This document shows positions 41,915 to 45,865 of a stretch of 64,000 nt of DNA, one piece after another. Every line of letters starts with the position of its first letter. Within the stretch, counting starts at the first letter, position 1. A program made the position numbers and the translations under genes. The notes under the pieces are model-generated. The model saw nothing but the letters and a program-made list of their open reading frames with translations, did no database searches and was not told the DNA's origin. This stretch comes from Blattabacterium sp. DPU (GTDB lineage: Bacteria; Bacteroidota; Bacteroidia; Flavobacteriales; Blattabacteriaceae). The DNA is taken from the NCBI RefSeq assembly GCF_011290385.1, contig NZ_CP049785.1, positions 62,001 through 126,000 on the forward strand, in the 5' to 3' direction.

Positions 41915-41915
41915 T

Positions 41916-42065
41916 TTATTTTTTATAATTAGAGACGGCAAGTCTTTTTCTTCCTTTTTTTCTTCTTCTAGATATAATCATACGACCTGTTTTTGTATTC
42001 ATTCGTTTCATAAATCCATGAACATTTATTTTTTTTTTATTTGAAGGTTGATAAGTTCTTTTCAT
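41916..42065 (-). CDS. rpmH: 50S ribosomal protein L34
   Basis: 49 residues, too short for many ORF callers. The translation begins [19 protein letters not shown], continues [20 protein letters not shown] and ends [10 protein letters not shown], which is the classic L34 sequence with normal length. It is the smallest ribosomal protein gene in the window. It is not next to rnpA, yidD or yidC as in many bacteria. The 53-codon membrane protein gene lies 24 bases upstream on the same strand. Confidence 0.96.
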
Positions 42066-42089
42066 ATTATTTATTATTTTATTTGTTTT

Positions 42090-42251
42090 TTATTTTTTAA
42101 TATTTTTATAAAAATATTTTACATCTTTCTTTTCTACTATTTTTTTCTTTTTTATATTCAATAATCTTTTTTGATAGGAAAAAAAAAATAATATCAAAAT
42201 ACCAATAATAAAACCTGTAAAAAAGAAAATTATACGTCTTGAAAAACTCAT
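42090..42251 (-). CDS. Small single-helix membrane protein of unknown function (53 aa)
   Basis: A 53-residue reading frame: basic start MSFSRRI, one hydrophobic helix (residues 7-25, IIFFFTGFIIGILILFFFS), then a lysine-rich tail ending NIKK. The predicted topology is N-in with a cytoplasmic or periplasmic basic tail. I recognise no family. Its support is an ATG start, tight spacing to rpmH (24 bases), a clean helix and the lack of any alternative gene in this gap. It could be a remnant of a longer protein. Confidence 0.6.
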   Translation of the reverse strand: MSFSRRIIFFFTGFIIGILILFFFSYQKRLLNIKKKKIVEKKDVKYFYKNIKK

Positions 42252-42344
42252 GATATAACATGTAATGTATATGAGAGAAATTACATAAAGTTTTTATTTT
42301 TATGGTATTTTTTTTGTAAAATTTCTATTCAATTTATATTATAT

Positions 42345-43673
42345 ATGCTTGAAAAGCAAAAGACTATTGCAGAAAAAATTTCTTTAAGAGGATTTGGTTT
42401 ATATACTAAAAAAAAAGTAACTATTACTTTCAAACCAGCTCCAATCCATACAGGATTCATTTTTGTTAGAACAGATATAAAAGAAAAACCATGTATCAAA
42501 GCACATTATTCTTTTTTTGTTAAGGAGAGTATAGATAAAGGTATTATTTTGGAAAAAAATGGATTCAAAATTTATACAATTGAACATGTTTTAGCGGCTT
42601 TAACAGGTATGGATTTAGATAATGTAATCATAGAATTAGATAACTTGGAAATTCCTATAATGGATGGTTCTTCTAAATTTTTTGTAGAAGCAATTCAAAA
42701 AGTGGGAATTATAGAACAAAACGAAATAAGAAAATATTACTCTATAACGGAAATTATTTCTTATGAGAATACAAAAACAGGAGGAGAAATCTTAGTTTTA
42801 CCTGCTAAAAAATTTGAAATCATGATTTTTATAGATTTTAACTCTAAATATTATGCGCAAAATATTATTTTTAAACATTTATATCAATTTCAAAAAATTG
42901 CAAATTCAAAGATTTTTTGTATTCTGAATGATAAAAAAAAGCGAAAAAAAATAATTAATTCTTCTTTCAAAAAAATTAGTAAAATAAAAGAAGATTCTAT
43001 GTATTCTTTTTTTTATAAAACATTTTCTGATCAGTATCAAACATTTAATGAAATTGCTAAACATTTTATTTTAGATATTTTAGGCTTTCTAACTTTAATG
43101 GAAACTAAGTTAAAAGGTAAATTCATTTTTTATAATCCAGATAACTATATTATTATGCAATTTTTAAAGGAGTTAATGAATAAAATTCAAACATTTAGAA
43201 AAAATGATATTCCTGAATTTGATTTAAAAAAGAAACCTCTTTTAGATATAAAAAGTATTATGAGAATTTTACCTCATAAACCTCCATTTCTTTTAGTTGA
43301 TAAAATTATAGATTTAACAGAAAATAGTATTGTAGGGATCAAGAATGTGACAATGAATGAATCTTTTTTTATAGGTCATTTTCCTAGAGAACCCATCATG
43401 CCTGGTGTGTTACAAATAGAAGCCATCGCACAAGTTGGAGGAATACTTGTTTTAAATAAATTAAGTCATCCTGAATTATATTCTACCTATTTTTTGAAAA
43501 TAGATAAAGTAAAATTTAAACATAAAATAATTCCTGGAGATATTATTGTTTTTAAAGTTTATTTATTAGAATCTATGAAAAGAGGGATTGTTCATATGCA
43601 AGGAAAAGGGTATGTAAATAACAAACTTGTAGTGGAAGCAGAAGTAGTCGCAAAAATAGTTAAAAATTTGTGA
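42345..43673 (+). CDS. LpxC-FabZ fusion: degenerate UDP-acyl-GlcNAc deacetylase domain plus intact 3-hydroxyacyl-ACP dehydratase
   Basis: 442 residues. The N-terminal LpxC domain (1 to about 290) keeps zinc ligands His81, His240, Asp244 and base Glu80. By gapless local alignment to E. coli LpxC it lacks Lys239 (Phe241), Asp246 (Phe248) and His265 (Asn267); Thr191 is Ile190 and the GGxxDNAIV segment is missing. The C-terminal FabZ domain (about 300-442) is intact, with LPHKPPFLLVDKI, His345 in GHFPREPIMPG and Glu359. The fusion is normal for Bacteroidota; FabZ serves fatty-acid elongation. I infer the LpxC activity is lost and the gene is kept for FabZ. efp follows closely; lpxA and lpxD are not adjacent. 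Confidence 0.92.
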   Translation: MLEKQKTIAEKISLRGFGLYTKKKVTITFKPAPIHTGFIFVRTDIKEKPCIKAHYSFFVKESIDKGIILEKNGFKIYTIEHVLAALTGMDLDNVIIELDNLEIPIMDGSSKFFVEAIQKVGIIEQNEIRKYYSITEIISYENTKTGGEILVLPAKKFEIMIFIDFNSKYYAQNIIFKHLYQFQKIANSKIFCILNDKKKRKKIINSSFKKISKIKEDSMYSFFYKTFSDQYQTFNEIAKHFILDILGFLTLMETKLKGKFIFYNPDNYIIMQFLKELMNKIQTFRKNDIPEFDLKKKPLLDIKSIMRILPHKPPFLLVDKIIDLTENSIVGIKNVTMNESFFIGHFPREPIMPGVLQIEAIAQVGGILVLNKLSHPELYSTYFLKIDKVKFKHKIIPGDIIVFKVYLLESMKRGIVHMQGKGYVNNKLVVEAEVVAKIVKNL

Positions 43674-43697
43674 TAAGTTTTGAAAATTTTCAATCAA

Positions 43698-44267
43698 ATG
43701 AATATAAAAAAGGGATTGCATATACAATGGAAAAATGAAATATTTAAAATTATTGATTTTCTTCATGTAAAACCAGGAAAAGGATATGCTTTTATTAGAA
43801 CAAAATTAAAAAATTTGATAACTGGTCATATTATAGAAAATAATTTTTCAGCAAAATATAAATTAAAAAAGGTTCAAATAGAATCTCATTTCTATAGATA
43901 TTTATATAAAGGAAAAAATACTTTTTATTTTATAAATGATAGTACTTATGATCAAATACAAATAGAAAAAAGGTTAATAAAAAATGTAAATATAGAATTT
44001 TTAAAAGAAGGGATGATAATATCTATTTTTTTTCATGTTAAAAGTGAAAAAGAAAAAATTTTTTTATTTTTTAAAATACCTTCCACAGTAATTTTAAAAG
44101 TAGAAGAGACAGAAAATGTAAAAAAGGGAGATACCGTTAATAATGTAAATAAAGTTGTTATTTTAGAAACAGGAACAAGATTATTAGTTCCCTCTTTTAT
44201 TAAAAGAGGAGATTTTGTTAAAATAAATACAGTAAATAAATCTTATGTTGAAAGAGTTAGAAAATAA
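43698..44267 (+). CDS. efp: Translation elongation factor P
   Basis: 189 residues from ATG 43698; a TTG at 43680 would add six residues and also fits the family N-terminus, so the start is open. EF-P relieves ribosome stalling at polyproline. FLHVKPGKGYAFIRTKL holds the tip lysine region, followed by three beta-barrel domains; the C-terminal TGTRLLVPSFIKRGDFVKINT is typical. The middle (SHFYRYLYKGKNTFYFINDSTYDQ) is diverged. In free-living flavobacteria lpxA lies between lpxC-fabZ and efp in my recollection; here the two are only 6-24 bases apart. Confidence 0.94.
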   Translation: MNIKKGLHIQWKNEIFKIIDFLHVKPGKGYAFIRTKLKNLITGHIIENNFSAKYKLKKVQIESHFYRYLYKGKNTFYFINDSTYDQIQIEKRLIKNVNIEFLKEGMIISIFFHVKSEKEKIFLFFKIPSTVILKVEETENVKKGDTVNNVNKVVILETGTRLLVPSFIKRGDFVKINTVNKSYVERVRK

Positions 44268-45189: not shown

Positions 45190-45779
45190 ATGAATAATTT
45201 ACATAGTATAGAAAAATTTTTGATAATTGGATTAGGAAATCCAGGATATTTATATAGAAAAAATAGACATAATTTAGGATTTATGATATTGGATCAAATA
45301 TCTAAAAAATATTTTTTTTCTTTTTCTAAAAAAAAATTCGGTTTTATTTCTAAATTCAATTATGATAATAAATTACTTTTTTTCTTAAAACCTAGCACTT
45401 ATATGAATCAAAGTGGCATAGCTGTTAAATATTGGATGATACAAGAAAAAATAATATTAAAAAATATTATTGTAATATCTGATGATATTTATTTGAATTT
45501 TGGTCGTTTTCGCTTAAGAGGTCAAGGAGGTAGTGGAGGACATAATGGGTTAAAAAATATAGAAAAAGAAATAGGAACTTCTCATTATGCACGACTTCGT
45601 TTTGGCATTAAAAAAAAAATCATTTTGATCAAAAAATAGATTCTTATGTATTGGAAAATTGGACAAATGAAGAAATAGATTATGTATTTTGCAAATTAGA
45701 CATAGGTATAAAAATAATATTTTCATTTATAAAAAATGGATTACAGAAAACAATGAATATGTTCAATCATCATACTTAA
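45190..45779 (+). pseudogene. pth: Peptidyl-tRNA hydrolase, disrupted by a -1 frameshift at a poly(A) tract
   Basis: The frame opens at ATG 45190 and stops at 45639 after 149 residues. The ten-A run at 45610-45619 is one base short (or two long). Changing frame there restores the rest of Pth (HFDQKIDSYVLENWTNEEID... to TAA 45777-45779), about 196 residues in total, the normal length. Catalytic residues His27, Asn74, Asp99 and Asn120 all lie before the break; the lost part is the C-terminal lid region. Pth is essential in most bacteria, so function may be rescued by polymerase slippage at the A-run, as reported for other AT-rich endosymbionts. Sequencing error is the alternative. Confidence 0.88.
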
Positions 45780-45792
45780 ATATGATAAAATT

Positions 45793-45865
45793 AACCTTGT
45801 AGTTTAATAGGATAGAATATAGGATTCCGATTCCTATGGTATGGGTTCGATCCCCTTCAAGGTTA
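45793..45865 (+). tRNA. tRNA-Arg (anticodon CCG)
   Basis: 73 bases. The acceptor AACCTTG/CAAGGTT is fully paired, D stem GTTT/GAAT (with G-U pairs), anticodon stem TAGGA/TCCTA with loop TTCCGAT and anticodon CCG at 45827-45829, T loop TTCGATC. As in the other tRNA-Arg of this window, the second pair of the T stem is U-U. Discriminator A45865; CCA not encoded. It reads CGG. It sits between the frameshifted pth and lepA. Confidence 0.93.

Follow-up and report, generated by a model that had tools for sequence, protein, structure and literature searches.

The lpxC-fabZ fusion gene and its surroundings

The window, that is, the whole stretch of 64,000 nucleotides that was analysed, belongs to the genome of Blattabacterium sp. 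DPU, which is a single contig of 623,008 bases. An open reading frame at 42345-43673 on the forward strand encodes a protein of 442 amino acids in which an LpxC domain is fused to the FabZ dehydratase. The features of this gene and of its flanks are presented below in window coordinates; G053, used for comparison, has a genome of 1.3 Mb and is the sole other member of the family with an LpxC.

41915..42344, no strand: gap 5' of the fusion, where G053 has lpxD (comparison with G053)
42345..43673, +: gene of the LpxC-FabZ fusion protein (442 aa)
42345..42719, +: domain I of LpxC (aa 1-125), AlphaFold2 pLDDT about 89-97, not relaxed (omega 0.083)
42582..42587, +: Glu80-His81, corresponding to the general base Glu78 and the zinc ligand His79 of E. 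coli, conserved in 37/37
42720..43196, +: LpxC domain II, aa 126-284, omega 0.17, relaxed with respect to FabZ
42912..42914, +: Ile190 replacing Thr191 (PDB and MAFFT alignments)
42918..43040, +: what is left of the acyl-chain loop (aa 192-232), shortened and disordered, GG segment deleted (alignment; pLDDT <50)
43062..43064, +: His240, zinc ligand, His238 of E. coli (36/37, the exception being Cys)
43065..43067, +: Phe241 replacing Lys239 (Lys in 0/37)
43074..43076, +: Asp244, zinc ligand, Asp242 of E. coli (35/37, the two exceptions being Glu)
43086..43088, +: Phe248 replacing Asp246 (alignment)
43143..43145, +: Asn267 replacing His265 (alignment)
43239..43670, +: half coding for the FabZ dehydratase (aa 299-442; omega 0.053)
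43377..43379, +: FabZ catalytic His345, invariant across the fused genomes
43419..43421, +: FabZ catalytic Glu359, invariant across the fused genomes
43674..43679, no strand: 6-base gap before efp, where G053 has lpxA (comparison with G053)

In the profile searches, the Pfam LpxC model matched residues 5-278 (175.9 bits) and the Pfam FabA/FabZ domain residues 309-433. The protein passes the equivalog of the fusion, NF009667, with 527.6 bits (cut-off 465) and the FabZ model NF000582 with 157.6 (cut-off 113), lies slightly below the cut-off of the FabZ model TIGR01750 (152.9 against 155.15), and fails the stand-alone lpxC equivalog TIGR00325 (124.7 bits, cut-off 187.25). The His and Glu of the FabZ motif are present in all 49 Blattabacterium genomes, the one genome that does not match the motif differing solely at the preceding Gly. 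The window's protein has the domain order, the length and the FabZ half of the LpxC-FabZ fusions of Bacteroidota/Chlorobi (NF009667), a fusion already noted in Chlorobium (PMC516016), and occupies the same position as in the lpxD-lpxC/fabZ-lpxA-efp neighbourhood of G053; it differs from them in the loss of LpxC active-site residues and of the substrate loop, and in the excision of lpxD and lpxA. The AlphaFold2 model (mean pLDDT 85.7) presents both LpxC domains well formed, with disorder confined to residues 192-232, and its best structural matches are LpxC enzymes (E ~1e-23).

Regarding the neighbouring genes, efp (elongation factor P, 43680-44267) is intact in the window; in the stretch around the lpxC-fabZ locus, it gave no match in 19/49 genomes and is truncated in 2/49. 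The normally essential gene pth (peptidyl-tRNA hydrolase, 45190-45800) carries a frameshift at an A run (about 45610-45619), and its frame is also split in seven other Blattabacterium genomes, mostly near long A/T runs, which suggests that pth is rescued by transcriptional slippage. The genes located 3' of sucD do not adjoin lpxC-fabZ in G021 (L164), a case of either rearrangement or assembly break in a genus that is otherwise collinear.

The LpxC active site and the lipid A pathway

In LpxC, Glu78, Asp246 and Thr191 have established catalytic roles. A preliminary description of the locus, made from the sequence alone, had proposed that the LpxC half lost several catalytic residues and the GG segment of the loop while keeping its zinc ligands and general base. 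We aligned the protein on the basis of PDB structures and, with MAFFT, together with the LpxC of E. coli and those of 78 free-living Bacteroidota, and the proposal was confirmed residue by residue. Each of the four substitutions (Lys239 to Phe241, Asp246 to Phe248, His265 to Asn267 and Thr191 to Ile190) falls in a gap-free block in both alignments, which also agree in that the GG segment (GGxxxNA) is missing, and in that Glu80, His81, His240 and Asp244 stand at the positions of Glu78, His79, His238 and Asp242 of E. coli. The three zinc ligands are His79, His238 and Asp242, the UDP-phosphate region comprises Lys143, Lys239, Lys262 and His265, and Met195, Ile198, Phe212 and Val217 form the acyl tunnel (PMC10254716). 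With respect to the LpxC enzymes of E. coli (4mqy), P. aeruginosa (5upg) and A. aeolicus (1p42), the window's half shares the fold, the zinc ligands and Glu78, but has neither Lys239, Asp246, His265 and Thr191 nor the acyl tunnel, and remains below the TIGR00325 cut-off.

The same pattern is observed across the genus, where we counted residues in E. coli numbering over the 37 full-length fusions. Lys239 and the GG loop are found in 0/37, Asp246 in 3/37 (one clade), His265 in 8/37 and Thr191 in 11/37; Glu78, His79 and Asp105 are found in 37/37, His238 in 36/37 (one Cys) and Asp242 in 35/37 (two Glu), and Cys and Glu are likewise residues able to bind zinc. Since the four lost residues are conserved in 78/78 of the free-living relatives, Lys239 in none of the 37 and Glu78/His79 in all of them, the losses are due neither to chance nor to misalignment. 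Most residues that bind the UDP, hexose and acyl moieties are gone, and the spacing between F192 and H238 has been reduced to 17-51 residues, compared with 66-74 in free-living Bacteroidota, the length of the acyl loop varying freely among the fused genomes. The emptied positions (Lys239, Asp246, Asn268 and Thr64) are now mainly hydrophobic: at Lys239 and Asp246 we found mostly Ile, Phe, Tyr or Leu and not Lys or Asn, which are otherwise common in these AT-rich proteins. Some replacements are genus-wide, among them His19 to Tyr and Thr64 to Ile.

The rest of the pathway is also absent. No lpxA or lpxD above the curated cut-offs was found in any of the 49 Blattabacterium genomes (0/49), and lpxB and lpxK had no match in any of them. 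Weak matches to lpxA and lpxD were rejected as lpx genes, being short fragments far under the cut-offs. In the window's genome, which contains an Omp85 protein and FabF, lptD was not found, a weak point because the lptD model also misses the Bacteroides control. The active-site and loop losses, together with the missing lpx genes, substantiate the earlier suggestion that lipid A deacetylation has been lost, and metabolic models of B. cuenoti leave out lipopolysaccharide because its complete synthesis is impossible (PMC3287516).

The comparison with G053 dates this loss. Its gene order is lpxD, lpxC/fabZ, lpxA, efp and sucD, a second LpxD-like gene lying between efp and sucD, and its LpxC has every catalytic residue in place; lpxD and lpxA have thus been excised from either side of the fusion in the window, and deacetylation died before Blattabacterium radiated. 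Because Lys239 and the GG loop are absent in all 37 survivors, they were lost before the crown of the genus, and Asp246, Thr191 and His265 were lost stepwise afterwards. The association with cockroaches is more than 200 million years old (PMC9603385), and the split between two studied strains dates to about 140 million years ago (PMC3287516). Provided that this split lies within the span of the 49 genomes, as we infer, the dead domain has been kept for at least that long. G053 (L184) also carries a uvrA-like gene split into several frames, and its genome appears to be at an earlier stage of reduction.

Selection on the two halves and repeated loss of the LpxC half

All 49 genomes match the protein, but the fusion has not been maintained in all of them: 37/49 carry it whole in one open frame, and 12/49 have FabZ alone, in genes that begin at most tens of residues upstream of the FabZ domain, with an LpxC part that ranges from a full-length pseudogene (G016 and G017) to near-complete deletion. 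On a FastTree phylogeny of seven neighbouring proteins plus FabZ, and assuming no regain, the LpxC half was lost independently about eight times, an estimate since some branches are weakly supported. FabZ is intact, as had been anticipated, and able to outlive its partner, and the LpxC half is dispensable because about eight lineages dropped it and kept FabZ. After the loss, FabZ evolves at a normal rate, with a clear excess in G015 only, so there is no obvious need for the LpxC half. A search for a FabZ surface freed by the loss gave only four recurrent, conservative hydrophobic changes, and therefore no FabZ-LpxC interface could be mapped.

Where the fusion persists, we estimated dN/dS separately for the two halves, as the preliminary description had proposed, with a codon model (M0, F3x4) written for this analysis. 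For the LpxC half omega was 0.130 (domain I 0.083, domain II 0.172) and for FabZ 0.053, the neighbouring genes giving 0.060-0.117; deep synonymous change is partly saturated in these estimates, and close pairs, with third-position differences of about 10%, still give 0.06-0.20. For the LpxC half, fixing omega at 1 was worse by about 860 log-likelihood units. Glu78, His79 and Asp105 are within the dozen most constrained of 267 sites, with site omega of about 0.001. Given that the crown branches all postdate the inferred loss of the pathway, this selection acts on a domain without a lipid A role. As in pseudoenzymes, dead domains with structural or regulatory roles, the catalytic residues are gone and the fold has remained under purifying selection; the Blattabacterium LpxC half differs from them in being fused to an indispensable enzyme and repeatedly lost.

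The behavior of closely related genomes is in line with the codon model. For two closely related pairs that have intact fusions, divergence is 4.5-5.4% in the LpxC half and 5.1-5.8% in FabZ, and the alignments contain no gaps. For G016/G017, where LpxC is broken, the stretch 5' of FabZ, which takes in some true intergenic DNA, shows 14.6% divergence and 95 gap columns, and FabZ 3.1% divergence, so that the broken LpxC DNA decays at about five times the rate of FabZ. Furthermore, the ratio of change between domain I and FabZ is 1.2-1.3, compared with 1.35-1.7 in free-living Bacteroidota, whereas for the zinc-helix part of domain II it is 1.8-2.5 against 0.9-1.4. Domain I is thus not relaxed relative to FabZ, and domain II is.

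Why the LpxC half is retained

The preliminary description had inferred plain erosion, with the LpxC half surviving as a passenger of FabZ; on this reading it has no function and stays open only because a stop would silence FabZ. This picture holds for the twelve FabZ-only genomes, where the full range of end states is observed, and the freely varying acyl loop would also agree with it. For the thirty-seven fused genomes, the window included, it is not supported: omega is close to that of the neighbouring genes and far below 1 across the crown, where the pathway was already absent, close pairs diverge at FabZ-like speed without indels, the zinc site is conserved and domain I unrelaxed, while released copies decay several times faster and accumulate many indels. 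Plain erosion is already disfavoured by the codon model, and we consider it unlikely. Far less probable, to the point that we give it hardly any weight, is a still-active LpxC with relocated catalytic residues in an incomplete pathway complemented by the host. It could appeal to the retained zinc ligands and general base and to the score above the NF009667 cut-off; nevertheless, the alignment is gap-free at every lost residue, lpxA, lpxD, lpxB and lpxK are missing (as is lptD, with the caveat on its model) and the metabolic models of B. cuenoti (PMC3287516) omit lipopolysaccharide.

The explanation that we favour, with about an even chance of being correct, is that the LpxC half has lost catalysis but persists as a folded pseudoenzyme domain that probably binds zinc, and that its fold is what is maintained until FabZ gains a start of its own. 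Zinc binding is itself probable, to judge from the retained ligands. As His79 lies in domain I and the other two, His238 and Asp242, sit on a helix of domain II, a putative metal would tie both domains together; it could staple the LpxC half into a compact fold, and in this way the attached, indispensable FabZ polypeptide would be made and folded properly. The hydrophobic residues at the former polar positions of the active site may pack the empty pocket, and neutral decay would begin only after FabZ obtains its own translation start. Several observations go against this staple model: FabZ evolves at a normal rate after the loss, with the sole clear excess mentioned above; domain II, adjacent to FabZ, is relaxed and the distant domain I constrained, the reverse of what a simple folding hostage predicts; and a purely structural zinc site would not need the strict retention of Glu78, which points to a separate metal-dependent function.

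The normal FabZ rate after the loss and the constraint on the domain farther from FabZ make such a function a live rival of the staple model. In general terms, it is possible, although we hold it only tentatively, that the LpxC half has retained or acquired a role independent of lipid A, as a minimal zinc-plus-glutamate hydrolase or as a sensor or regulator that depends on a metal, with a different and smaller ligand. The extreme constraint on Glu78, His79 and Asp105, the metal-capable exceptions among the zinc ligands, a constraint on domain I relative to FabZ equal to that of free-living bacteria and the new residues common to the genus argue for it; about eight losses without visible cost to FabZ, the disappearance of most substrate-binding residues, the relaxation of domain II and the lack of a candidate substrate argue against it. 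Somewhat more doubtful still is the specific version in which the domain would be a new metal-dependent module, either regulating FabZ or acting as a zinc-glutamate hydrolase of some other substrate, that was maintained for perhaps a hundred million years or more following the abandonment of lipid A and has since been dropped independently about eight times.

The loss of LPS in Blattabacterium and the LpxC-FabZ fusions themselves were already known; in the Blattabacterium lpxC/fabZ literature, as judged by titles, abstracts and term counts, we found no report that the LpxC half is dead yet conserved, or that it was deleted repeatedly. In consequence of the losses described here, the name given by NF009667 to these proteins, bifunctional LpxC/FabZ, wrongly implies lipid A synthesis. 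The genus offers a natural replicated experiment on the fate of one half of a fused enzyme once its pathway dies, in which one can trace the order of the residue losses, the choice between keeping the dead half and deleting it was settled independently about eight times, and FabZ serves as a built-in control. The maintenance of the LpxC half, nearly as strict as that of housekeeping enzymes, questions the assumption that symbionts quickly shed useless domains.
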